A program made the translations under genes and the position numbers. Below, piece by piece: positions 4,923 through 15,363 of a stretch of 33,023 nt of DNA. The stretch is from Ardenticatenaceae bacterium (lineage in GTDB: Bacteria; Chloroflexota; Anaerolineae; Promineifilales; Promineifilaceae). A model generated the notes under the pieces. The model had not been told where the DNA came from, searched no databases, and saw only the letters and a program-made list of their open reading frames with translations. Position 1 is the first letter of the stretch. The number at the start of each line of letters is the position of its first letter. The stretch spans positions 1 through 33,023 of the forward strand of contig JALUPA010000258.1 in NCBI GenBank assembly GCA_027054335.1, in the 5' to 3' direction.

Positions 4923-4992
4923 TCGGTTAGTCTGGTAGTCAATAGCCAAGACTGCCCGACTACCCGACTACAAGACTACCCGACTAGAGGAC
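4923..4992 (+). repeat. GACTACCCGACTAC word-repeat tract
   Basis: The entire spacer consists of variants of GACTAC(C/A)(C/A)G: GTCGGTTAGTC and GGTAGTC in one orientation, then GACTGCCCGACTACC, GACTACAAGACTACC and GACTAGAGGAC in the other. They can pair as a hairpin. The same word is at 2518-2533 and 28131-28159. Confidence 0.6.
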
Positions 4993-4998
4993 TAAACT

Positions 4999-6261
4999 AT
5001 GGATCACGTAAAATATTTGAAATGTCTTATTTGCGGCAAAGAGTATGCTCCGGATGAGATTGAATATATCTGTCCCGACCATGGCAACGAGGGTATTGTG
5101 GATGTGGTGTACGATTATGATTTAATCAGACAGCGCATCAGCCCAGAAAGCCTGGCCGCGAATGATGATTACACCATCTGGCGCTACAAACCGCTGCTGC
5201 CGATTGAGGCGGATGCGAAAGTACCGCCGCTCTCCATCGGCTGGACGCCGCTGTATGACGCGCCCCGACTGGCGGAAAAGTTGGGCTTGCAACAGGTGTG
5301 GGTGAAGGATGACGGCCGTAACCCCACTGCCAGTTTCAAAGATCGGGCCAGCGCCATCGCCGTGGTTAAAGCGCAGGAACAGAATGCCGACACCATCACC
5401 ACAGCCAGCACCGGCAACGCGGCCGCTGCTCTCAGTGGCATCTGCGCCAGTGTGGAACAACCCAACGTCATCTTTGTCCCCGAAGCGGCCCCGCCGGCCA
5501 AAATTGCCCAACTGCTGGTCTTTGGTTCTACGGTGATGTTAGTAAAGGGGACGTATGACGACGCCTTCGAGTTGTGTCTGGAAGCGGCAGCCGAGTATGG
5601 CTGGTACAACCGGAATACGGCTTACAATCCATACATGACCGAGGGTAAGAAAACGGCCGTCTACGAAATTTGCGAGCAGTTAGACTGGAAGGTCCCCGAC
5701 GTCATCTTCGTCAGCGTGGGCGATGGCTGCATCATCGGCGGGCTGCACAAAGGGCTGAAAGATTTGCTGGCGCTGGGCTGGATTGACCAGATGCCGCGTA
5801 TCATCGGTGTGCAGGCGGAAGGCAGCGCCTTTATGTATGAAGCGTGGCGTGATGGTGAGGATGTATTGACCAAAGCCCCCGTTTCCGGCGTCACTGTGGC
5901 CGACTCTATCAGCGCCGGACTGCCGCGCGACCGGATTAAAGCGCTGGCTGCCGTGACGGAAACCAACGGCGCTTACGTCCGCGTCAGCGACGACGAAATC
6001 CTGGAAGCGATTCCCGCTCTGGCTCGCGGCGTCGGCGTCTTTGCCGAACCGGCCGGCGCGACCGCTTACGCCGGTCTCATCAAAGCTGTGGCCGATGGTC
6101 TGGTCAACAGCAATGACCGCATCGTCGTCCTCAACACCGGCAACGGCCTGAAAGACATCAAAAGCGCCATGAAGTCGGTAGAGATGGTGGGCACAACCGC
6201 CAACCGCGTCGCCCCCAATCTGGACGATCTCAAACGGGTGATGGCGGAACTATCCTCTTGA
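4999..6261 (+). CDS. Threonine synthase-like PLP-dependent enzyme
   Basis: The 420-residue fold-type II PLP enzyme opens with a zinc-ribbon-like segment (Cys9, Cys12, Cys25, pattern CLICG...YICPDHG) as in archaeal/bacterial threonine synthases. The PLP lysine is Lys114 in NPTASFKDRAS, followed by TTASTGNAAAAL. Length and motifs fit threonine synthase (O-phosphohomoserine to threonine). No homoserine kinase or other threonine gene is nearby, while carbamate kinase lies 76 nt upstream. A lyase role analogous to YgeX (diaminopropionate ammonia-lyase) in the cluster is therefore possible but not shown. Its TGA is within a TTGACC that may be a -35 for the next gene. Confidence 0.75.
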   Translation: MDHVKYLKCLICGKEYAPDEIEYICPDHGNEGIVDVVYDYDLIRQRISPESLAANDDYTIWRYKPLLPIEADAKVPPLSIGWTPLYDAPRLAEKLGLQQVWVKDDGRNPTASFKDRASAIAVVKAQEQNADTITTASTGNAAAALSGICASVEQPNVIFVPEAAPPAKIAQLLVFGSTVMLVKGTYDDAFELCLEAAAEYGWYNRNTAYNPYMTEGKKTAVYEICEQLDWKVPDVIFVSVGDGCIIGGLHKGLKDLLALGWIDQMPRIIGVQAEGSAFMYEAWRDGEDVLTKAPVSGVTVADSISAGLPRDRIKALAAVTETNGAYVRVSDDEILEAIPALARGVGVFAEPAGATAYAGLIKAVADGLVNSNDRIVVLNTGNGLKDIKSAMKSVEMVGTTANRVAPNLDDLKRVMAELSS

Positions 6262-6280
6262 CCGGCCGCGTGTCGTTTTA

Positions 6281-6289
6281 TGCTACAAT
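6281..6289 (+). promoter_or_regulatory. Extended -10 promoter for Uma2 gene
   Basis: TGCTACAAT is an extended -10 (TGnTACAAT) 35 nt before the start codon. A TTGACC at 6258-6263 is too far (20 bp) for an ideal -35. The same TGCTAxAAT form precedes the genes at 9296 and 31947. Confidence 0.4.
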
Positions 6290-6323
6290 GCGGGTATAAC
6301 GAACCAGGTAGAAGAGGTGGATT

Positions 6324-6884
6324 ATGAGCGTGCAATTTGTTCGTCGCCGATTTACCGTTGCCCAGTACAATCAGATGGCGGCGGCCGGCGTGTTCCAGGA
6401 AGATGAGCGTCTGGAGTTGATTGCAGGAGAAATTATTGAAACGAGTCCGATAAGTATGGTTCATGCAGCTTGCGTTAAAAGATTGAATCGTATCTTTACT
6501 CGCAAGCTGGGCAACGACGCGATCATTGGTATTCAGGACCCCATTCACCTGGACGAGCATTCCGAACCGGAACCAGACGTCGTTTTACTTCATCCGCGGC
6601 CGGACTTTTACGTGGCCGGCCACCCTGAACCGGAGGACATTTTCCTGCTGATAGAAGTCTCAGAAACGTCCCTGGCCTATGACCGGGAAGTAAAACTACC
6701 CCTGTACGCCCGCGCCGGGATCATGGAGGTGTGGTTGGTAAACGCGCGTGAAGAAGTTGTGGAACTATATCGTCAACCAACGCCTGACGGATTTACCGAA
6801 ACCCGCCGATATAGAAAGGGAAACAGCATATCGCCCCTGGCTTTTCCTGATCTGAACATAGTTGTAGAGCAAATTACCGGATGA
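6324..6884 (+). CDS. Uma2-family (DUF820) putative PD-(D/E)XK endonuclease
   Basis: The 186-residue protein matches Uma2 proteins, which are abundant in Chloroflexota and cyanobacteria. It has the FTVAQYNQMAAAGVFQEDERLELIAGEI opening block, then PEPDVVLL, LLIEVSETSLAYDREVKLPLYARAG (acidic residue, Glu and Lys of the nuclease-like core) and EVWLVN. Family function is uncertain; restriction-endonuclease fold is known, and expansion by transposition is common. An AGAGGTGG site upstream and an own promoter suggest independent expression inside the metabolic cluster. Confidence 0.88.
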   Translation: MSVQFVRRRFTVAQYNQMAAAGVFQEDERLELIAGEIIETSPISMVHAACVKRLNRIFTRKLGNDAIIGIQDPIHLDEHSEPEPDVVLLHPRPDFYVAGHPEPEDIFLLIEVSETSLAYDREVKLPLYARAGIMEVWLVNAREEVVELYRQPTPDGFTETRRYRKGNSISPLAFPDLNIVVEQITG

Positions 6885-6914
6885 TAAAGTCAATCTTTAC
6901 AACGAGGGCGCTTT

Positions 6915-6943
6915 GTTATACGATGTTAATACAATCGTTATAC
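6915..6943 (+). promoter_or_regulatory. Direct repeats GTTATAC upstream of RHH antitoxin
   Basis: GTTATAC (6915), GTTAATAC (6925) and GTTATAC (6937) are spaced by 10-12 nt, about one helical turn, just before the AAAGGAGAC ribosome site. This is a plausible autoregulatory operator for a ribbon-helix-helix antitoxin. Confidence 0.4.
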
Positions 6944-6957
6944 AAAGGAGACTAAAA

Positions 6958-7212
6958 ATGAAAACGGCCGTTGTAACAACCCGAATTGAACCAGAGTTGA
7001 AACAAGAAGTAGAAAATGTATTGCGAGAATTAGGTCTGACGACGTCACAAGCTGTCTTACTCTATTTCAAACAAATCGCCTTACAAAAAGGACTGCCTTT
7101 TTCTGTAAAAGTTCCCGATAAACAGAATACATTTATCGATCAACTTTTGGCAGATCCACTTAAGATCGAAACATTTCAACCCTTGACACGAGAAGAAGTT
7201 CATGAGCGGTAA
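6958..7212 (+). CDS. RelB/DinJ-type ribbon-helix-helix antitoxin
   Basis: The 84-residue protein begins MKTAVVTTRIEPELKQEVE, followed by LRELGLTTSQAVLLYFKQIALQKGLPF, the RelB/DinJ signature, and a C-terminal tail that would wrap a toxin. The start at 6958 is chosen because AAAGGAG lies 8 nt upstream; an earlier in-frame ATG-like extension has no ribosome site. The next ORF starts 11 nt before this one ends, giving a translationally coupled toxin-antitoxin operon. The DinJ-like antitoxin is paired here with a PIN toxin rather than YafQ. Confidence 0.85.
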   Translation: MKTAVVTTRIEPELKQEVENVLRELGLTTSQAVLLYFKQIALQKGLPFSVKVPDKQNTFIDQLLADPLKIETFQPLTREEVHER

Positions 7213-7624
7213 GCAGCGCGGTTTCATTGACTCCAACATCTGGCTATACGCCTTTATCGAAACAGATGACCCTGTTAAAACAACCCTCGCCCGGAACCTG
7301 ATTCAGACAGTTGAACCAGTTATTAGTACCCAGGTGATCAATGAAGTCAGTGTAAATCTGATCCGGAAAGCAGGGTTTTCCGAAGAACAGATACGTTTGC
7401 TAATTCATTCCTTTTTTGCCAAGTATGACGTATTACCAGCAACGCAAATGCTGCTGTTAAATGCTTCTCAATTAAGAGACCGGTATTCCCTGTCATTTTG
7501 GGACAGCCTTATTGCGGCTTCTGCGTTAAGCGCGTCTGTTTCCTATTTATATTCAGAAGATATGCAAGATGGGCTGCTGGTAGCCGCCCAATTGCACATC
7601 ATAAATCCTTTCAAAAGTGAGTGA
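7202..7624 (+). CDS. PIN-domain toxin (VapC-like RNase)
   Basis: The 140-residue protein has FIDSNIWLYAF near the N-terminus (first acidic residue), Glu in VINEVSVNL, and SFWDSLIAASAL (third acidic cluster), then LYSEDMQDG. These are the four acidic sites of PIN ribonucleases. It overlaps the antitoxin gene by 11 nt. The pair is inserted between the two PLP enzyme genes of the metabolic cluster. Its stop overlaps a possible GTG start of the next gene. Confidence 0.87.
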   Translation: MSGKQRGFIDSNIWLYAFIETDDPVKTTLARNLIQTVEPVISTQVINEVSVNLIRKAGFSEEQIRLLIHSFFAKYDVLPATQMLLLNASQLRDRYSLSFWDSLIAASALSASVSYLYSEDMQDGLLVAAQLHIINPFKSE

Positions 7625-7629
7625 AAAAC

Positions 7630-9126
7630 ATGACCGATTTAATTGATTTAACGATTCACAACGAAGAAGCTCTGGAACACGCCGTGCAGCGTGCCCGCGA
7701 GCGCAATATCATCATTCCCACCTTCAAGCAGCAGCGTAACCCGGAACTGATTCCCGACGTTATCAAGGAGAAACTGGCCGACGTGGGCTTGTGGGATTTG
7801 AACCCGCTGAACCTGTTCCGCATCACCTGGCATAACGAGCCAAAAGAGTCTGGCGGCGGCTTCAATGGCGTCAACTACATCGAGTTTCCCCCGGAATTGA
7901 CCGGCGTTGAGGCCCGCATTGTTATGATCATTGGCAAATGGTTCCCCACCGGGGCGCATAAAGTAGGGGCGGCCTTTGGCTGTCTGGTTCCCCGGCTGGT
8001 CACAGGGCAATTTGACCCTACCACGCAAAAAGCCGTCTGGCCCAGCACCGGCAACTACTGCCGCGGCGGGGCTTACGATTCCAACCTGTTGGGTGCAGAA
8101 TCTATCGCCATCCTGCCCGAAGGCATGAGCCAGGAGCGGTTTGATTGGCTGGCTTCCGTGGCCGGTGAAACCATCAAAACCCCTGGTTCAGAAAGTAATG
8201 TGAAAGAAATTTTTGACAAATGTTGGGAATTGCGCGAATCTGGTGAGGATTTGGTCATTTTTAACCAGTTTGAGGAATTTGGCAACTATCTGTGGCATTA
8301 CGAGATCACCGGCCCGGCTATGATGGAAGTGCTGGATGAGGTAATGGGGCCGGATGACAGATTCCGGGCCACCGTTTCCAATACCGGCTCCGGTGGTACG
8401 ATTGCCTGTGGCGACTACATGAAGGAACAATTCCCCACCAGCAAGATTGTGGCCAGCGAGGCGTTGCAATGTCCCACCCTGCTCAACAACGGCTTTGGGG
8501 CGCACCGCATTGAAGGCATTGGCGACAAGCACGTGCCGTGGATTCACAATGTCAAGAATACAGACGTGGTGACAGCCATTGATGACAATGATCCCATGGC
8601 TTTGATTCGCCTCTTCAACGAACCGGCCGGGCAGACATATCTGATCGAGCAAGGCGTTCCGGCCGAATTTGTAGAGAAGCTACCATTGTTGGGTATTTCC
8701 AGTGTGGCGAATCTACTGGCAGCCATCAAAACAGCTAAATACTACGAAATGAATGGCAATGACGTAATCATCACGGTGGCTACGGATTCGATGGAAATGT
8801 ACCAGAGTCGTTTGGTGGAATTAACGGCCGAAGAGGGCGAATTTACACCGCTGGCTGCGGCGGCCGCTTTTGCTCGGAGTTTGCAAGGTATCGCTACCGA
8901 TTCTATGCAGGAGTTGACTTATGTGGACCGCAAACGTATTCACAATTTGAAATATTTCACCTGGGTTGAGCAGCAAGGCAAAACCTTTGAAGAAATTCAG
9001 GCGCAATGGTATGATGACGATTACTGGACGAGTATTCACGGTCACGTAGATGAGATGGATGCTTTGATTGATGCTTTTAATGAACGGGTAGGGTTGCTGC
9101 CAAAGTTACTGGCGGAATCTGAATAA
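7630..9126 (+). CDS. TrpB-fold PLP-dependent enzyme of unknown reaction
   Basis: About 498 residues, longer than TrpB or cysteine synthase (a GTG at 7621 would add three). Lys111 in FPTGAHKVGAAFG is the likely PLP lysine, and SNTGSGGT forms the phosphate cradle, so the protein is fold-type II. STGNYCRGGAYDSNLLG replaces the usual SxGNxG motif. An acidic, aromatic C-terminal extension (QAQWYDDDYWTSIHGHVDEMD) is unlike tryptophan synthase. It closes the carbamoyltransferase/carbamate kinase cluster and is followed by a strong terminator. A role as a lyase or desulfhydrase-type enzyme acting on the amino-acid product is an inference. I do not recognise a named gene. Confidence 0.7.
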   Translation: MTDLIDLTIHNEEALEHAVQRARERNIIIPTFKQQRNPELIPDVIKEKLADVGLWDLNPLNLFRITWHNEPKESGGGFNGVNYIEFPPELTGVEARIVMIIGKWFPTGAHKVGAAFGCLVPRLVTGQFDPTTQKAVWPSTGNYCRGGAYDSNLLGAESIAILPEGMSQERFDWLASVAGETIKTPGSESNVKEIFDKCWELRESGEDLVIFNQFEEFGNYLWHYEITGPAMMEVLDEVMGPDDRFRATVSNTGSGGTIACGDYMKEQFPTSKIVASEALQCPTLLNNGFGAHRIEGIGDKHVPWIHNVKNTDVVTAIDDNDPMALIRLFNEPAGQTYLIEQGVPAEFVEKLPLLGISSVANLLAAIKTAKYYEMNGNDVIITVATDSMEMYQSRLVELTAEEGEFTPLAAAAAFARSLQGIATDSMQELTYVDRKRIHNLKYFTWVEQQGKTFEEIQAQWYDDDYWTSIHGHVDEMDALIDAFNERVGLLPKLLAESE

Positions 9127-9162
9127 CTCGTTTTTGTTGCCGATAAGAAATAAACTCAATAG

Positions 9163-9203
9163 CAGATTGTCGGCATGACATATGTGCCGGCAATCTGTTT
9201 TTT
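9163..9203 (+). terminator. Rho-independent terminator of the carbamoyltransferase cluster
   Basis: CAGATTGTCGGCA (9163-9175) pairs with TGCCGGCAATCTG (9185-9197), a 13-bp stem with one G-U, followed by six T. It ends the long plus-strand cluster. Confidence 0.85.
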
Positions 9204-9227
9204 ATACAGCAGTTCACCCTCAAAATA

Positions 9228-9236
9228 TGCTACAAT
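9228..9236 (+). promoter_or_regulatory. Extended -10 promoter
   Basis: TGCTACAAT, identical to the element before the Uma2 gene, precedes the small gene at 9302 by about 65 nt. No good -35 is visible. Confidence 0.4.
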
Positions 9237-9301
9237 GTGCCTGCGTCAAGGTTAATCTGGATAGCGGCGTCTGTTGAAATAATTTTACTGAGGGTTTGTT
9301 G

Positions 9302-9691
9302 GTGGTAATGGGTGATTCTGAGTCTTCGATAGGCCTGCACCCGGATGGCTATATTGAGATTGTTTTTAGAGGGGTGGTGCGTTCGACGCGCCTGGCGGAG
9401 CTTATTGAGGAGGCGCGGCGTTTGTCGGAGGAGTATGGGCCGGTTAATGTATTGGTTGACGGCCGTAACGGTTCCACCAGTCGCACTGCCCGCAGTTTTT
9501 CTACTTTGATGCGTATGGGGCGCTTCCCTAAAGTACTCCAACTCATCGTTCTGACCACAGACGATCCCGCCAGAATAGATGCCATTCGCGGGCCAGGTGT
9601 TGTTACTTCTATTTTGACGCCGATACTCGGTGTTCGCCCTATCTACACCAGTGATGAAGAGGAAGCCCGCCACCTGGCGGCTATGAGATAG
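9302..9691 (+). CDS. Small STAS/SpoIIAA-like protein, function unknown
   Basis: About 129 residues. Likely start is GTG 9302 (GAGGG 7 nt upstream) or ATG 9308. The pattern GYIEIVFRGVV...NVLVDGRNGSTSRTAR...RFPKVLQLIVLTTDD resembles STAS/SpoIIAA-like proteins, which are alpha/beta folds with a central strand ending in a DGR-type loop. There is no membrane segment. It is a single gene between two terminators, so it is independently transcribed. Partners are unknown. The family assignment is by overall strand/helix rhythm and is tentative. Confidence 0.55.
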   Translation: MVMGDSESSIGLHPDGYIEIVFRGVVRSTRLAELIEEARRLSEEYGPVNVLVDGRNGSTSRTARSFSTLMRMGRFPKVLQLIVLTTDDPARIDAIRGPGVVTSILTPILGVRPIYTSDEEEARHLAAMR

Positions 9692-9729
9692 AAAAAGGTT
9701 CCCCTCTATCAGAAGTGGAACCCTTTTCT
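9690..9729. terminator. Bidirectional terminator between convergent genes
   Basis: AGAAAAAGGTTCC (9690-9702) pairs with GGAACCCTTTTCT (9717-9729). The stem is A-rich on one side and T-rich on the other, and sits between the plus gene ending 9691 and the minus moeB-like gene ending 9736. Confidence 0.75.
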
Positions 9730-9735
9730 ATTTTA

Positions 9736-10950
9736 CTAATAAACAGGCAGCGACTTGTCTATCTCTTGCGCCCAGCGGTTGATGCCGCCTTCCAGATTCC
9801 ACAATTTTTGGAAGCCGTGCTGCTGTAATTGGCGCACAACGGCCGCGCTGCGCGCCCCGCTGCGGCACTGCACCACAATTTCTTTGGCCGTATCCAGTTC
9901 GTTCATACGTTCCAGCACCTGCCCCTGGGGGATGAGAATGGCTCCCAGCGGTTCCAGGTTGGAAATGTCCCATTCGTGCGGCTCACGCACGTCCAGGATG
10001 AGCAGGTCGTCCCCGGCGTCCAGCCTGGCTTTGAGTTCCTGGGGGGTGATTTGGGGTACGGCCGTGCCATTTCCCGTATCGGCTCCGGCGTACAAGCTGT
10101 GATCGTGAGCCGGCATCCCGCAAAACTGCTCGTAATCAATTAATTCTGTGATGGAAGGGTTCTCGCCGCAAACGGGGCAGTGGGGATTTTTGCGCAGGCG
10201 TACCTGGTCAAATTCCATATTCAGGGCATCGTACAGGAGCAAACGGCCAATCAGCGGTTCGCCAATGCCCAGGATGAGCTTGATTGCCTCGGTAGCCTGA
10301 ATGGCCCCAATCGTGCCCGGTAAAACGCCCAACACGCCACCCTCGGCGCAGGAAGGAACCAGCCCCGGCGGCGGTGGTTCGGGGAAGAGGCAGCGGTAGC
10401 ACGGCCCTTCTTCGGCGTAAAAGACGGAAGCCTGCCCTTCAAAGCGGAAAATACTGCCGTAAACGTTGGGCTTGCCCAGCAGCACGCAAGCGTCGTTGGT
10501 CAGGTAACGGGTGGGGAAGTTGTCTGTGCCGTCAATGATGATGTCGTAAGGCTCGAACAGTTCCAGGGCGTTGGCTGAAGTGAGGGGAATTTCGTAGGCG
10601 TCTACCTGGACGTGGGGGTTGATGTCCAGCATCGTTTCTTTGGCACTTTCCAATTTGGGCCGGCCGACGTCTTTGGTGCCGTGAATGATTTGTCGCTGGA
10701 GGTTGGTGTAATCCACTACGTCGTAATCCACCAGGCCGATGCGCCCCACCCCGGCAGCCGCCAAATACATCGCCAGGGGCGATCCCAGCCCGCCGGCGCC
10801 AATTAACAGGACGCTGGCGGCTTTCAGTTTTTTCTGCCCGGCCATGCCCACTTCGGGCATGATCAGGTGGCGGCTGTAGCGTTGTACTTCTTCGTGGGAC
10901 AAGGTGACGTCAGCTACGGCCGTAGGGTCTATCAACTCTTTAATACTCAT
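9736..10950 (-). CDS. moeZ: MoeB/MoeZ-type adenylyltransferase-sulfurtransferase (ThiF + rhodanese)
   Basis: The 404-residue protein has an E1-like ThiF domain (GAGGLG at 51-56, acidic strand DYDVVDYTNLQRQ, zinc pairs Cys184/187 and Cys258/261, CAEGGVLGVLPG). This is followed by a C-terminal rhodanese domain (from about 303) with LDVREPHEWD and catalytic Cys362 in QCRSGARS. Such enzymes adenylate the C-terminal glycine of a MoaD/ThiS/CysO protein and load sulfur as a thiocarboxylate. The gene overlaps the CysO-like gene by 4 nt (ATGA), so they are coupled. With the JAMM protease and CysM-type synthases nearby this fits the mycobacterial CysO-CysM route to cysteine. Confidence 0.92.
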   Translation of the reverse strand: MSIKELIDPTAVADVTLSHEEVQRYSRHLIMPEVGMAGQKKLKAASVLLIGAGGLGSPLAMYLAAAGVGRIGLVDYDVVDYTNLQRQIIHGTKDVGRPKLESAKETMLDINPHVQVDAYEIPLTSANALELFEPYDIIIDGTDNFPTRYLTNDACVLLGKPNVYGSIFRFEGQASVFYAEEGPCYRCLFPEPPPPGLVPSCAEGGVLGVLPGTIGAIQATEAIKLILGIGEPLIGRLLLYDALNMEFDQVRLRKNPHCPVCGENPSITELIDYEQFCGMPAHDHSLYAGADTGNGTAVPQITPQELKARLDAGDDLLILDVREPHEWDISNLEPLGAILIPQGQVLERMNELDTAKEIVVQCRSGARSAAVVRQLQQHGFQKLWNLEGGINRWAQEIDKSLPVY

Positions 10951-11225
10951 ATTAGTCTCCCTCCCGCAATCGAAGGAATAATCATCAAGGTATCATTCTC
11001 GCCAATCTCGGTGTCTGCCCCATCCAGGTAGCGCACGTCTTCCTGGTTGAGGTAGATGTTGACGAAACTGCGCAGTTCATCACCCTCAAAAAGGTGCTGG
11101 CGCAGGTCGGGGTACTGTTCTGTCAGGTTGCTCAAGGCCGCGCCGACGGTACCGCCATCGGCGTTGACGGAAGCGTTGTTGCCGGTATACGGCCGTAATG
11201 GGGTAGGAATACGAATTGTTGCCAT
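10947..11225 (-). CDS. CysO/MoaD-like sulfur carrier protein with GG-RLI tail
   Basis: The 92-residue ubiquitin-like protein (MATIRIPTPLRPYTG start, NIYLNQEDVRYLDG, DTLMIIPSIAGG) matches CysO/MoaD carriers. The activatable GlyGly (88-89) is followed by three extra residues, RLI. Known carriers with a blocked tail, such as QbsE (GG-CF), need a JAMM protease to expose GlyGly, and a JAMM protein is encoded 76 nt upstream in the same operon. The Gly codons and tail also form the GGGAGGGAGA ribosome site of moeZ. AAGGAG upstream supports the ATG. Confidence 0.88.
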   Translation of the reverse strand: MATIRIPTPLRPYTGNNASVNADGGTVGAALSNLTEQYPDLRQHLFEGDELRSFVNIYLNQEDVRYLDGADTEIGENDTLMIIPSIAGGRLI

Positions 11226-11242
11226 TATTATCTCCTTGTGTG

Positions 11243-11316
11243 GGAGATTAGAGATTGGAGATTAGAGACTACCAGCGGTATACGGCCAATCTCCAATCTC
11301 TCAATCTCCAATCTCC
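11243..11316. repeat. GATTGGAGATTAGA word-repeat hairpin
   Basis: GGAGATTAGAGATTGGAG and following words (11243-11269) face CAATCTCCAATCTC words (11287-11316), giving a long imperfect hairpin between the CysO-like and JAMM genes. The end of the JAMM reading frame (EIGD-stop) is encoded within the repeat. Related tracts are at 14199-14243 and 15985-16042. Confidence 0.75.
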
Positions 11317-11735
11317 AAAATATTTTCTTCAACAAAACCAGACCGATCCTCGGCTAACTGCCAGGACTGGCTGTAGGTAGGTTCTCCGTTAAGAACCTGG
11401 GTAATCAAATAGGAATATCCCGGCCAACTGGCCCAGGCCAGGTCGCGGGGTGAGGCTACCGGCGCGTCGTCCGGGTGGCTGTGGAAGATGCCGACAACGT
11501 CCAGGCCGTTCAGCATCGCTTCCAGTTCCACCTGTTGCCACGCCTGCGGGTCAATGCTGAAGCGGACCGGTTTTTCCGCCTCGTTGGGCCACACATTTTC
11601 CAGAGGGCGAATATCGGTTACGATGTTGTTTCCATTTTCCACCTGTCCCAGGAGCAGCCCGCAGCCTTCATACGGGTACGAAGCCGCACCGTGGGCTTTG
11701 ATTTGATTGTGGATTTGTTTTGTCAGTTTTAGCAT
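11301..11735 (-). CDS. JAMM/MPN+ metalloprotease (Mec-like)
   Basis: The 144-residue protein has the zinc JAMM motif: Glu23 in YPYEGCGLLLG, then HSHPDDAPVASPRD with His85, His87, Ser95 and Asp98. In mycobacteria, Mec (such a protein) releases cysteine from CysO-Cys. In QbsD it trims a carrier tail. Either or both roles fit here, since the carrier next door ends GG-RLI. The start at 11735 is preferred: an upstream extension to 11867 would read through word repeats and the riboswitch terminator. It is the first gene after the SAM riboswitch, followed by the CysO-like and moeZ genes. Confidence 0.9.
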   Translation of the reverse strand: MLKLTKQIHNQIKAHGAASYPYEGCGLLLGQVENGNNIVTDIRPLENVWPNEAEKPVRFSIDPQAWQQVELEAMLNGLDVVGIFHSHPDDAPVASPRDLAWASWPGYSYLITQVLNGEPTYSQSWQLAEDRSGFVEENILEIGD

Positions 11736-11743
11736 GGTTTCTC

Positions 11744-11797
11744 GTGATGCGTGATGCGTGATGCGTGATGCGTATTTTACGTATCGCGCATCACGTT
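11744..11797. repeat. GTGATGC x4 (period 7) with complementary end
   Basis: GTGATGC is repeated four times exactly (11744-11771), followed by GTATTTTAC and GTATCGCGCATCACG, which fold back on it. It lies in the untranslated leader between the riboswitch terminator and the JAMM start codon. Confidence 0.75.
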
Positions 11798-11805
11798 TCA
11801 CGCAG

Positions 11806-11837
11806 CAAAAACGCCTTCCCGAAAGTTGAGAAGGCGT
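11806..11837 (-). terminator. Riboswitch-controlled intrinsic terminator
   Basis: On the minus strand ACGCCTTC (from 11837) pairs with GAAGGCGT (to 11811) and is followed by a run of T. A second hairpin (GTCTGACTG/CAGCCAGAC, 11836-11856) lies just upstream and overlaps its base, so the two may compete. Together with the aptamer this is the expression platform. Confidence 0.85.
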
Positions 11838-11859
11838 CTGGCTGATACAGTCAGACCCG

Positions 11860-12029
11860 GTTCTCATCTTCCAGAGATTTGTTATTTCTCTGCCGGATTT
11901 AGCACCATTTCCTTTTTGGGTAATTAGTAATTAGGTAATTATGAATTACCATTTATCAGTTACCAATTACTATAAAGGCGGTTGCTGAGGCGTCATCGGG
12001 CCGGTCCCTCGACCTCTCTTGATAAGATG
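11860..12029 (-). promoter_or_regulatory. SAM-I (S-box) riboswitch upstream of the JAMM-CysO-moeZ operon
   Basis: Minus-strand reading gives the S-box landmarks in order: CTTATCAAGAGAGG with its kink-turn, GAGGGACCGGCCCGATGACGCC, CAGCAACC, then GGTGCTAAATCC, GGCAGAG/CTCTGGAAGATGAG closing P1 (CTTATC pairs GATGAG). High SAM would favour the downstream terminator and switch the operon off. The P3 arm is enlarged: CCTTT (+ 11911-11915) pairs AAAGG (11974-11978) around a TAATT word repeat, instead of the usual short hairpin. Confidence 0.92.
11921..11972. repeat. TAATTAGTAATTAGG word repeat inside riboswitch P3
   Basis: TAGTAATTAGGTAA (11925-11938) pairs with TTACCAATTACTA (11960-11972). A second short pair (GGTAATT/AATTACC) lies inside. 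The same word family occurs at 12091-12149 and 15147-15205. Confidence 0.75.
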
Positions 12030-12057
12030 GGTTTGCATTATTTTGTTGTTGGCCGTC

Positions 12058-12086
12058 ATCTTAACAAAAGAGTGGGGGAACGTCAA
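12058..12086 (-). promoter_or_regulatory. Promoter of the SAM riboswitch operon
   Basis: On the minus strand TTGACG (+ 12081-12086), a 17-bp spacer and TAAGAT (+ 12058-12063) stand about 30 nt before the aptamer. Confidence 0.7.
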
Positions 12087-12090
12087 TAAT

Positions 12091-12149
12091 TTGTAATTTG
12101 TAATTGAGTAATTGGGTAACCAGGTAATTACTCAATTACTCAATTACCC
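12091..12149. repeat. TAATTGAGTAATTGGG word-repeat hairpin
   Basis: TTGTAATTTGTAATTGAG and GTAATTGGGTAA (12091-12119) face TAATTACTCAATTACTC words (12125-12149). The stop codon of the cysteine synthase ending at 12144 is part of a repeat word. Confidence 0.75.
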
Positions 12150-13097
12150 ATCCCAAAAAGGATCGCTCAAATACTTGAAGCCGTTATCCGGGAGGACGGT
12201 GACGATGACGCCTTCATCAATCTGACGGGCGACGTGGATCACGGCCGTAACCGCCGCCGCTGCCGAGATGCCCGCAAACAACCCTTCCTGCCGGGCCAGA
12301 AAGCGGGCCATTTCGTAAGCGTCTTCTGTGCGCACGGTGATTTGCTCGTTGGCTGCGGTTTCATCGTAGATGCCGGGTTGGATGGAGGTGGCCATATGCT
12401 TAAGACCTTCCAGGCCGTGAAAGGGGCCGTCCGGCTGCATGGCGATGGTCTGAATGGCCGGGTTGTAGGTTTTCAGGCGGCGAGCTGTGCCGGTGAAGGT
12501 GCCGCCTGTGCCTAAACCGGCGACGAAATGGGTGATACGGCCGTAACTCTGCTGCCAAATCTCCGCGCCCGTCGTATGGTAATGCGCCTGCCAGTTGGCC
12601 GAATTGTTGTACTGGTTGGCGTAAAACAACGTGGGGTCGTCTGCCGCCAGCCGCCGCGCTGCCAGGATGGCCCCGTCCGAGCCTTCCAGAGGATCGGTGA
12701 AGATCAGTTCCGCGCCGTAGGCCTTGAGGATGGCGATGCGTTCCGGGCTGGCGTTGGCCGGCAGGGTGAGCATGACGTGGTAGCCCCGCACCGCGCCCAG
12801 CATGGCGTAGGCGATGCCCATGTTGCCGGAGGTGGAGTCCAGCAGAGTCATGCCGGGGCGCAGTTGGTCGTGCGCTTCGGCGGTGAGGATGATGTTGAGG
12901 GCAGCCCGGTCTTTGACGGAGCCGCTGGGATTGTACCATTCTGCTTTGGCATAAAGCTGGATGGCGTCGGGAATGTCGTGGGCCACGGCCGTGCGCCGCA
13001 GCCGCAGTAAAGGCGTGTGGCCTACCTGACTTTCCAGACTGTCAGACAAAATTTGCTGAGGAGCAAAGGGAGTACGTTTTTCGATTGTAGATAACAT
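12144..13097 (-). CDS. cysM: Cysteine synthase family protein (CysM/CysK type), copy 1
   Basis: The 317-residue fold-type II PLP enzyme has the PLP lysine Lys62 in NPSGSVKDRAA, the STSGNMGIAYA loop and the GTGGTFTGT phosphate cradle. All are typical of O-acetylserine or O-phosphoserine sulfhydrylases. The start at 13097 is chosen because an upstream extension reads repeats. It has its own promoter and a leader with a Cys-containing peptide and attenuator. The neighbouring CysO-like carrier, MoeZ and JAMM protein suggest it may use carrier thiocarboxylate as sulfur donor, as mycobacterial CysM does. A second homologue lies at 14246. Confidence 0.9.
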   Translation of the reverse strand: MLSTIEKRTPFAPQQILSDSLESQVGHTPLLRLRRTAVAHDIPDAIQLYAKAEWYNPSGSVKDRAALNIILTAEAHDQLRPGMTLLDSTSGNMGIAYAMLGAVRGYHVMLTLPANASPERIAILKAYGAELIFTDPLEGSDGAILAARRLAADDPTLFYANQYNNSANWQAHYHTTGAEIWQQSYGRITHFVAGLGTGGTFTGTARRLKTYNPAIQTIAMQPDGPFHGLEGLKHMATSIQPGIYDETAANEQITVRTEDAYEMARFLARQEGLFAGISAAAAVTAVIHVARQIDEGVIVTVLPDNGFKYLSDPFWDG

Positions 13098-13109
13098 ATT
13101 GCAAGTGTT

Positions 13110-13139
13110 CCTGATTGACGATTCACGATTGACGATTAG
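13110..13139. repeat. GATTGACGATTCAC word repeat
   Basis: GATTGACGATTCACGATT is followed by GACGATTAGG in the leader of cysM copy 1, between the attenuator terminator and the start codon. It is a direct repeat of 7-nt words. Confidence 0.6.
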
Positions 13140-13146
13140 GGCAAAC

Positions 13147-13214
13147 AAAAAACGGCCGTACCCGAAGGTGCGCCAGACTGCAATCTTGCGACTGCGAGGG
13201 TGGCTACGGCCGTT
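13147..13214 (-). terminator. Attenuator terminator before cysM copy 1
   Basis: On the minus strand AACGGCCGTA (+ 13205-13214) pairs with TACGGCCGTT (+ 13151-13160), extended by GG/CC pairs, and is followed by six T (13147-13152). The loop is about 44 nt. The left arm alternatively pairs with 13241-13267, so formation is conditional. Confidence 0.7.
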
Positions 13215-13267
13215 TGTCTTTGTTCGTTATCGTCTCAGGAATAGAACAACGGCCGTTAGCGCCCTCG
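13198..13267 (-). promoter_or_regulatory. Putative antiterminator helix
   Basis: On the minus strand GCGAGGG and GCTAACGGCCGTT (+ 13248-13267) pair with AACGGCCGTAGC and CCCTCGC (+ 13195-13214), an almost continuous helix of about 19-20 pairs. It includes the stop codon of the leader peptide and sequesters the left arm of the terminator, so the two structures exclude each other. Confidence 0.6.
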
Positions 13268-13297
13268 CTCCATACACCTGCAATATTGTCCATTCAT
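13256..13297 (-). CDS. Leader peptide MNGQYCRCMERGR (putative cysteine attenuator)
   Basis: A 13-codon ORF starts with ATG at 13297 about 28 nt after the predicted transcription start, preceded by a weak CAGG site. It encodes Cys at positions 6 and 8 and stops inside the 5' arm of the antiterminator. This is the arrangement expected for ribosome-mediated attenuation. With enough Cys-tRNA the ribosome reaches the stop and masks the arm, letting the terminator form. Stalling at the Cys codons leaves most of the arm free. Cys is a rare amino acid, and two codons in 13 just before a cysteine synthase is unlikely by chance, but expression is unproven. Confidence 0.5.
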   Translation of the reverse strand: MNGQYCRCMERGR

Positions 13298-13331
13298 AAG
13301 AAAAAACCTGTTATCAAATCGTTATAAATCC

Positions 13332-13359
13332 AGTATAGCAACGCTTTTTGGCGCGTCAA
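13332..13359 (-). promoter_or_regulatory. Promoter of the cysM copy 1 leader
   Basis: On the minus strand TTGACG (+ 13354-13359), a 16-bp spacer and TATACT (+ 13332-13337). Transcription would start near 13325, giving a leader of about 228 nt. Confidence 0.7.
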
Positions 13360-13414
13360 GGCATCTATCTTACAAAATAGGATGAGATGAGCTTAGATAT
13401 TCTTACCAAGTGGC

Positions 13415-13442
13415 AAAAGGCAAAGTAGCCAGCAGCTTTGCC
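13415..13442 (-). terminator. Weak terminator after lysoplasmalogenase gene
   Basis: On the minus strand GGCAAAG (from 13442) pairs with CTTTGCC and is followed by TTTT, just downstream of the stop at 13451. Confidence 0.5.
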
Positions 13443-13450
13443 AGCCTGCA

Positions 13451-14185
13451 TCAGAGCAGAAAACGAATGGCTGCGCTAACTGAGTAAACAATAAGCATCT
13501 GGCCGGGGCCGTAGGTGAGCCAGACCACATCGCCGATAGATTTGAATTTGAGGCCGCTGAATAGTTCGCCGGCCAGAACCAGATCGCTGAAAAGGAAAAG
13601 GGCCGCGCCGGCGGCCAGGCCGGTGAATAGAGAAGATTGCCACGCCAGGCCGGTAGCCAAACCGGTGGTGGCGGCCAGCAGGAGGGCGTAGGGCAAGGCA
13701 GCCCAATGGAGTTTGCTGGCCGCCTGCCCGCGAAAGACGATGAAGTACCAGGCGATGGCGGCAATGACGAGCCAGATGGCGAGTGAACCCCAGCGGGTGG
13801 CGGGATTATCCAGGCCGGTCTGATTACCGTAGCGCAGGATGGCGACGACGTAGAAGATGTGCCCTGAACCAAAGGCGGCGATGCCGCCCATTACGTTACG
13901 GCCAAATGGCAGCAGGCCGGACAAGGCTAAATCCCCCAGAAAGCCAAAAGTCATGCCGATAGCAGTGAGGAGAGCATAAGATTTGGCTGCATTATCCGGG
14001 CTGACGAGGAACCAACTCCAGCCGGCCAGCGCCAGCGTAACGGAAGAAGCCAGCCGCGCCCGGACGGGAATGCGGTGCGTCTCGCTCTCCCGGCCGAAAA
14101 TGAAGCCGCCAAACAGCAAAACAGCCCACAGGAGCCAAAGCCCCGTGAGCCAGTAACGAGGAACGCCGGGAAGATAGTTGAGCAT
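13451..14185 (-). CDS. Lysoplasmalogenase family membrane protein (YhhN/TMEM86)
   Basis: The 244-residue protein is almost entirely hydrophobic with about eight membrane segments. It shows the YhhN-family marks: FGFLGDLALSGLLPF, FGSGHIFYV, LFLFSDLVLAG and TYGPGQMLIV, with the conserved acidic and His residues in those segments. The family hydrolyses the vinyl-ether bond of lysoplasmalogens, which would fit an organism with ether lipids. It follows the second cysteine synthase, separated by an 18-bp word-repeat hairpin, and may share its transcript. Confidence 0.88.
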   Translation of the reverse strand: MLNYLPGVPRYWLTGLWLLWAVLLFGGFIFGRESETHRIPVRARLASSVTLALAGWSWFLVSPDNAAKSYALLTAIGMTFGFLGDLALSGLLPFGRNVMGGIAAFGSGHIFYVVAILRYGNQTGLDNPATRWGSLAIWLVIAAIAWYFIVFRGQAASKLHWAALPYALLLAATTGLATGLAWQSSLFTGLAAGAALFLFSDLVLAGELFSGLKFKSIGDVVWLTYGPGQMLIVYSVSAAIRFLL

Positions 14186-14198
14186 CTGAGTCTGTCCA

Positions 14199-14243
14199 GA
14201 GATTGGAGATTGGAGACTCGGTTAATCTCCAATCTCCAATCTC
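14199..14243. repeat. Perfect 18-bp word-repeat hairpin (GATTGGA)
   Basis: GAGATTGGAGATTGGAGA (14199-14216) is the exact reverse complement of 14226-14243, with a 9-nt loop. It lies between the stop of cysM copy 2 (14246) and the start of the next gene (14185). No T-run follows, so it is not a standard terminator, but it could stabilise or process the mRNA. Confidence 0.8.
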
Positions 14244-14245
14244 AA

Positions 14246-15169
14246 TCACATTTGACTCAGATATTTTAGTCCATTATCGGGCAAAACGGTAACGAGGACG
14301 CCACGATCCAGGGTGCGGGCCACGTTGACGGTGGCGGCCACGGCCGCAGCCGCGGAGGGGCCGACGAGCAAGCCTTCCTGCCGGGCCAGGATGTGGGTCA
14401 TTTCTTCCGCTTCGGTGCGGGTAACGGTGACGTTGGCGTCGGCGGCCGTTTCGTCGTAGATGGCCGGTTTGACGGCCGTCGCCATATGCTTCATCCCTTT
14501 GATGCCTTCGTGGGCGGTGGCCGGCTGAATGGAGATACACTGCACGGCCGGGTCTTCCTGCTTCAGCCAGAGGGTCGTCCCCATAAAGGTGCCGGCCGAA
14601 CCCAATCCCGTGACGAAATGGGTGATACGGCCGTGCGTTTGCTGCCAGATTTCCGGGGCCATCGTGTGGTAATAGGCCAGCCAGTTTGCCATGTTATCGT
14701 ACTGGTTGGCGTAAAAGAGGCCGGGGTCGGTCTGGGCCATCTGCCGCGCCAGACGCAGCGCGCCGCTGGAGCCTGCCTGGCCGTCGGAGAAGACTAAATC
14801 CACCCCGTACTGGCGCAGGATAGCGATCCGTTCCCGGCTGGCGCTGTCCGGCAAGACCAGCTTGATTTTGTAGCCGCGCGGGATGCCCAGCATGGCGTAG
14901 GCAATGCCCATGTTGCCGGAGGTGGAGTCGAACAGGGTCATGCCCGGCCACAGTTTGCCCTCTTCTTCGGCCGTCTGCATGATCCACAGGGCCGCCCGGT
15001 CTTTGACGGAGCCGCTGGGATTAAACCATTCCGCCTTGGCGTACAGTTCTACCGTGGCGGGCAAGCCGCAGGCTACGGCCGTGCGCGTCAGGCGCAGCAG
15101 AGGGGTATTGCCGACGTGAGTTTCCAGGGTATGGGCGGTTTGGGGGTGAGTTAATTGAGTAATTGTCAT
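14246..15169 (-). CDS. cysM: Cysteine synthase family protein (CysM/CysK type), copy 2
   Basis: The 307-residue protein is clearly a paralogue of the gene at 12144. Marks are PLP Lys56 in NPSGSVKDRAA, TSGNMGIAYAML, and GLGSAGTFMGT in place of the copy 1 GTGGTFTGT cradle. The first codons after ATG (ACAATTACTCAATTAACTC) continue the upstream TAATT word repeat, so the N-terminus TITQL is repeat-derived. No Shine-Dalgarno is visible. Its leader lacks the Cys peptide and attenuator found before copy 1. The two copies probably differ in sulfur donor or in when they are used. Confidence 0.9.
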   Translation of the reverse strand: MTITQLTHPQTAHTLETHVGNTPLLRLTRTAVACGLPATVELYAKAEWFNPSGSVKDRAALWIMQTAEEEGKLWPGMTLFDSTSGNMGIAYAMLGIPRGYKIKLVLPDSASRERIAILRQYGVDLVFSDGQAGSSGALRLARQMAQTDPGLFYANQYDNMANWLAYYHTMAPEIWQQTHGRITHFVTGLGSAGTFMGTTLWLKQEDPAVQCISIQPATAHEGIKGMKHMATAVKPAIYDETAADANVTVTRTEAEEMTHILARQEGLLVGPSAAAAVAATVNVARTLDRGVLVTVLPDNGLKYLSQM

Positions 15170-15205
15170 TTTTGTAATTGGTAATTGGGTAATTGGATAA
15201 TTATG
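15147..15205. repeat. TAATTGGTAATTGGG word repeat spanning a start codon
   Basis: GTTAATTGAGTAATTGTCAT, then GTAATTGGTAATTGGGTAAT and TGGATAATTATGGG. The tract runs across the start codon of cysM copy 2 at 15169. Confidence 0.7.
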
Positions 15206-15305: not shown

Positions 15306-15363
15306 CACCCCATCACCCCATCACCTTGTCACCCTTTCACCTTGTCACCTTGCCACCTTGTCA
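15306..15363. repeat. CACCTTGT / CACCCCAT word repeat
   Basis: CACCCCATCACCCCATCACC, then TTGTCACCCTTTCACC, TTGTCACCTTGCCACC and TTGTC: 7-8-nt words each starting CACC, about seven units, upstream of the sigma factor gene. A following GCAACTTTTT (about 15371) could be an ECF-type -35, but no clear -10 is seen. Confidence 0.65.

Follow-up and report, generated by a model that had tools for sequence, protein, structure and literature searches.

The window analysed here is a stretch of 33,023 nucleotides from an uncultured Chloroflexota genome of Anaerolineae type, G000, of 5.85 Mb in 761 contigs, one of a family of 52 genomes among which G023 is the only other member of its genus (g1). On its minus strand lies an operon whose first gene encodes a JAB/MPN metallopeptidase of the Prok-JAB type (11301-11735; PF14464, 6.2e-19; start set by orthologue comparison), followed by genes for a ThiS-type sulfur carrier (10947-11225; PF02597, 9.1e-14) and a MoeZ-like protein with ThiF and rhodanese domains (9736-10950; PF00899, 1.5e-85; PF00581, 7.3e-17). 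The upstream neighbour on the same strand is a PLP-dependent enzyme of the cysteine-synthase type by domain (12144-13148; PF00291, 8.2e-70; start uncertain), and four such PLP-dependent (PALP) enzyme genes lie within about 10 kb of the window (4999-15169). Fourteen loci of the family, that of the window at 9736-13148 included, have a SAM-I riboswitch leading into the JAB-ThiS-MoeZ sulfur-carrier operon beside a cysteine-synthase-type gene, and gene order in G023 is the same as in G000. Of 80 JAB loci outside the family set, 20 were checked and none had a SAM riboswitch at the gathering threshold, so that no P3 comparison could be drawn from them.

The riboswitch occupies positions 12028-11861 on the minus strand and matches Rfam RF00162 over its full length (model positions 1-108 of 108) with 80.4 bits against a gathering threshold of 44.4 (E 1.3e-17); it is the sole Rfam match of the window at gathering threshold. 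The first-pass annotation had placed a SAM-I riboswitch here and proposed the Rfam search, and both the class and the location are borne out, with the strand, which it did not give, now added. A Rho-independent terminator, consisting of a hairpin and a T run, lies 3' of the aptamer (11807-11838, minus strand; -17.8 kcal/mol) and is retained in the orthologous leaders: a script finds it in 12 of 14, and in the other two, where an earlier T run was picked up instead, it is visible by eye. Between the terminator and the start codon there is a hairpin of the word CGTGATG (11743-11807), at a spot where G023 has a different hairpin. In the S-box scheme, SAM stabilises P1 and the terminator forms. 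The 3' strand of P1 in G000 is predicted to pair with the 5' arm of the terminator (-8.9 kcal/mol) as an antiterminator; this pairing could form in the absence of SAM, and stabilisation of P1 by SAM would then allow the terminator to form. Both the terminator and the downstream JAB-ThiS-MoeZ operon, with a sulfur role assigned by domain family, are as expected of the SAM-I class. The element thus has the appearance of a working riboswitch of the transcription-termination type ahead of this operon, and the G000 leader probably binds SAM and switches.

What sets the aptamer apart is its P3 arm, which runs from GCAACC to GGTGC and measures 84 nt (11902-11985, minus strand) against 27 nt in G023. 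Within it, at the site of the 7-nt P3 loop of G023, is a 64-nt hairpin built of GTAATTNN units and their complements (11913-11976, minus strand). The G000 and G023 aptamers can be aligned over 52 + 52 nt flanking the P3 loop with one substitution, the P3 of G023 is free of repeats, and P3 is the sole difference between the two predicted folds. The insert folds as an imperfect hairpin (-12.9 kcal/mol; relative to 100 dinucleotide shuffles, z is -2.9), the direct-repeat statistic for the aptamer is p = 0.001, the minimum reachable with 1000 shuffles, and the window holds eight copies of GTAATTNNGTAATT with at most one mismatch where 0.09 would be expected. A P3 of about 68 nt made of a self-complementary TAATT repeat had been described from the sequence: the arm is indeed long, repetitive and folded on itself through the complementary strings quoted, but its length and unit need revising, the 8-nt word GTAATTNN describing the repeat better. 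The further copy noted upstream is likewise present, in the form of another array of this word (TAATTTG, GTAATTGA and complement) at 12087-12147, on the 5' side of the riboswitch in the transcript sense, which G023 matches only partly. We rejected the idea that the P3 array derives specifically from this upstream one, the word being found throughout the genome. Words of 7-8 nt, as hairpins or in tandem, are also found in many of the window's intergenic gaps (11743-11807, 15306-15363, 15147-15202, 4947-4994 and 14199-14247), the words being CGTGATG, TCACCTTG, GTAATTG, GACTACCC and GAGATTG.

The family contains 137 SAM riboswitches in 51 of its 52 genomes, and word positions were counted in 133 of them. 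Thirteen carry two-unit words inside the aptamer, in P3 in all 13 cases, in agreement with the earlier proposal that the repeat sits in a tolerant loop. It can be seen from the distribution of array nucleotides that P3 holds 364 of 4024, while the counts elsewhere in these 133 aptamers are 0 of 6533 in P1-P2, 0 of 2093 in the P3/4 core, 0 of 2018 in P4 and 0 of 1596 in the 3' strand of P1; the flanking 150 nt hold 0 of 19847 downstream and 130 of 19840 upstream. Seven genera are represented among the 13 word-bearing riboswitches, which make about nine combinations of genus and operon, G003:C10 standing outside the operon assignment. The P4 arms of G004 and G006 look word-built by eye and are missed by the search patterns, so P3 is not the sole tolerant place. 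One cluster of 44 riboswitches (e.g. L002, L119), which we take from its sequence to be the metK group, never has words or a long P3, in which other operons differ. Words occur in 0 of these 44 against 13 of the 89 others (Fisher p 0.0048), and within word-rich genomes in 0 of 18 against 12 of 40 (p 0.011); P3 length perhaps matters more in metK-like riboswitches. Given the wordless metK group and the retained terminator, the core and the platform are kept and one arm changes freely.

We next consider where else these words occur. The count of three tandem GTAATTNN units, with at most one mismatch, is 307 in G000 and 117 in G023, with at least one copy in 18 of the 52 genomes; the backward-word control with three units gave 0 in each of the 52 family genomes. 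As in STRRs, the arrays consist of 7-8-nt tandem units in many copies, mostly intergenic: a 178.5-kb sample of G000 holds 37 short-unit arrays in 20.9 kb of non-coding sequence against 52 in 157.6 kb of coding sequence, the coding share being crude calls from greedy ORFs. The words CGGTAAT, GACTANNN and CAGTAGT are distributed among the 52 genomes differently from GTAATTNN, and patchily. In genus g16, three of the four words are absent from all eight genomes (G032-G039), as are word-bearing RNAs; CAGTAGT is near background there.

Words in the RNA arms match words that are abundant in the same genome. CGGTAAT occurs in RNAs of nine genomes with 65-749 copies each, above the other 43 (rank test p 2e-7), and carriers also rank high in their own abundance for GACTANNN (p 0.0019, one chance tmRNA match in a genome without copies included) and CAGTAGT (p 0.0022); the test is weak for GTAATTNN (p 0.058) because a single RNA, that of G000, carries this word. 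Of word-rich genomes 15 of 19 have a word-bearing RNA, of word-poor ones 1 of 33. These comparisons are to be read with the knowledge that the four test words were picked after the inserts had been seen, that some of the copies counted are the RNA elements themselves (e.g. in G042), and that the Fisher and rank tests treat genomes as independent despite their kinship. The question of a genome-specific vocabulary was decided by these whole-genome word patterns after work with shorter strings. A 9-mer test was dropped as uninformative because random expectation about equalled the counts. By 12-mers some inserts are enriched over shuffles (G000, 16 against a mean of 2.6 and a maximum of 14 in 200 shuffles), the matches of the inserts of G009, G043 and G042:C303 are not above shuffles, and the G000 insert has one match only in the 165 kb of its own sequence sampled.

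Other structured RNAs were scored with a pattern-free direct-repeat statistic against dinucleotide shuffles (cut p <= 0.004). It flags 9 of 137 SAM riboswitches, 10 of 48 cobalamin riboswitches and 2 of 46 RNase P RNAs, and 0 of 30 TPP riboswitches (30 of 47 matches) and 0 of 30 tmRNAs (30 of the 45 full-length matches listed). With the cut between word-rich and word-poor set at 20 copies, as chosen by the analyst, 19 of 118 RNAs over all classes are flagged in word-rich genomes against 2 of 173 in word-poor ones (p 1.3e-6); for cobalamin alone the figures are 10 of 18 and 0 of 30. In the RNase P RNA of G019 (L144) a stem close to the 5' end holds a clear ACCGATTACGG array, and the congener G020 lacks one at this place. 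That of G013 passes the statistic and shows no array by eye, so only G019 was counted in this class; G007 has an array by eye and does not pass the statistic. Two-unit GACTANNN matches in three tmRNAs were rejected as arrays, being single one-mismatch matches at about the level of the backward control (four elements), and were left in the rank test.

In the cobalamin riboswitches the arrays occupy a peripheral arm immediately 5' of the conserved AAGTC element, except that G042 uses another arm. Within genus g1 the two riboswitch classes are reciprocal: the cobalamin arm is long and wordy in G023 (L182:1501-1747) and short in G000 (L179:1501-1662), and for the SAM riboswitch the reverse holds. 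Midway along its array, the long arm of G023 still carries the tip of the G000 hairpin (GAGGCA-NN-ATTGCCA, 13 specified nucleotides), which occurs in 0 of 200,000 shuffles. Words were therefore gained (or lost) to either side of this old tip, and the pair suggests two-sided growth of the array around a retained hairpin tip. No retained old tip was seen in the P3 of G000.

Taken together, these observations make it very probable that the P3 loop of this SAM-I riboswitch expanded into a hairpin of the genome's own intergenic word, and that such arrays are tolerated in peripheral stems. The repeat process would act on non-coding DNA at large, most likely by replication slippage of 7-8-nt units together with hairpin-templated copying, the latter making the two arms complementary. 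Purifying selection on the aptamer core would remove arrays except where they only lengthen a peripheral stem, these stems being P3 in SAM-I and a single peripheral arm in the cobalamin class. Lengthening of P3 would not necessarily upset the SAM-dependent termination switch, and the extra arm is probably near-neutral. There is good support for growth of repeats under structural selection, and with it for the earlier reading of the locus as repeat invasion under such selection, given a congener with a repeat-free P3 and a word abundant elsewhere in the genome. Slippage and template copying as the source of the arrays we infer. A more specific version, which we put forward tentatively and consider somewhat less probable than its negation, is that peripheral RNA arms in this family are born from palindromic word arrays of the genome by two-sided stem growth beneath a retained tip, the core only filtering the outcome; with words added in both strands under the tip, hairpin-templated copying would supply ready-paired arms.

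The direction of change in P3 rests on parsimony. Orthologues in genera g8, g12, g13, g14 and g17 have a wordless P3 of 28-34 nt; those of genus g2 have a short to middle-sized P3, which in three of them (G004, G005 and G006) contains a different word, CGGTAAT. The short wordless P3 of five other genera makes gain the simpler reading, and we favour a recent expansion of the apical loop from about 7 to 64 nt. That the long P3 is ancestral and the repeat-free relatives lost the arm would fit the presence of both states in genus g1 and meets little opposition from the weakly resolved JAB tree, in which support within the group is weak, but is most improbable when the short P3 occurs in G023 as well as in these five genera, and when the long arms of g1 and g2 are built from different words. 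The first-pass annotation would have given up its interpretation without an RF00162 match, or had all relatives shared the long P3 without related repeats elsewhere; with that match present, a short P3 in G023 and the five genera, and 307 copies of the word in the genome, the opposite is found. The genomes are fragmented and MAG-like and tandem repeats are prone to misassembly, yet an assembly or binning artefact can be almost wholly discounted, since an identical 91-nt P3 is common to three g2 species, the flanks are clean and the pattern is present in many separate assemblies.

If gain is accepted, the arm might still have arrived as a block or have been kept for a use. Small mobile elements of the REPIN, MITE or SDR kind, one of which landed in the P3 loop, would explain why the words are dispersed, palindromic, patchy by lineage and present in hundreds of copies, and the G000 genome has five PF01797 Y1-transposase matches, two of them above the cut-off. 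We regard this as unlikely: of three Y1 loci read for a link to a RAYT gene, only L298 has a short word array (CGGTAAA); units vary within one array and the two arms of a hairpin can differ in word, as in the cobalamin arm of G023; and no target-site duplication is visible at the P3 junctions in the G000/G023 alignment. Moreover, a block landing in a loop would not leave the old tip in mid-array, and growth in place is favoured because the G023 cobalamin arm keeps the G000 tip there. Less probable again is an adaptive P3 that tunes how fast the leader folds, its pausing, the stability of its RNA or its binding of proteins. The folding stability of the arms does exceed that of shuffles (z -1.8 to -7.6 across 23 folded sequences, 22 of them word inserts or extended P3 arms and the other a GC-rich control) and arrays persist in the same cobalamin arm of three g8 species, but bare tolerance would also leave a hairpin; words, lengths and operons differ, the congener G023 does without the long arm, and the words track genome abundance rather than operon.

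Vioque reportedly described in 1997 STRR sequences in the RNase P RNA (rnpB) of heterocystous cyanobacteria. As here, short tandem words found genome-wide lie inside a structured RNA gene; the phylum and RNA are others, RNase P being rarely affected in our set with one clear genome (G019), and the likeness of the Chloroflexota arrays to cyanobacterial STRRs is a resemblance only. A close precedent is the group I intron of cyanobacterial tRNA-Leu(UAA), whose P6b stem in Nostoc consists of heptamer repeats with whole-unit indels (PMC4476775). There too 7-nt words form both sides of a peripheral stem, with side stem-loops and a repeat class that changes repeatedly among relatives, and the family riboswitches share with it a conserved core, a word-built stem and repeat-free relatives. 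That case concerns a self-splicing intron of Nostoc and its relatives and two word classes (TDNGATT and NNTGAGT), whereas the Chloroflexota case concerns riboswitch aptamers and many words that follow the intergenic vocabulary of each genome. According to Barrick and Breaker (2007; PMC2258182), many riboswitches put up with long stem-loops of non-conserved sequence inserted at particular sites, though in the portion available of that article the source of the inserted sequence is not traced, unlike here. A pneumococcal BOX element sits between two T-box riboswitches (PMC3049150) and is alike in being a repeat in a riboswitch leader that seems still functional; it is a larger MITE-like block between riboswitches and not words in an aptamer arm. 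The intergenic TAACTGA heptamers of Beggiatoaceae (PMC4679880) are also 7-nt direct repeats, patchy among lineages, and differ, in the sections available, in being a single word, mostly before start codons, with almost no inverted sets; riboswitches have 0 mentions in the text of that paper. A literature search covering few subscription journals returned no report of word repeats in riboswitch aptamers or in Chloroflexota. The evidence for recurrence is strong, and riboswitch aptamers and Chloroflexota extend the known range of repeat-built RNA arms.

Most differences between structured RNAs lie in peripheral arms whose origin is unknown, and here the source of an arm is traceable, its words matching those of the host genome with repeat-free orthologues alongside. 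The family offers a natural insertion-scanning experiment on which riboswitch loops, in which operons, survive; so far P3 does, with none seen in P1/P2, the junctions or metK riboswitches. The case is also a warning that, where a genome is rich in repeats, covariance searches, like length filters, may misjudge its riboswitches. It shows from where structured RNAs can obtain their spare parts; if two-sided growth is true, riboswitch arms would keep a record of how the repeat vocabulary of each genome has changed.
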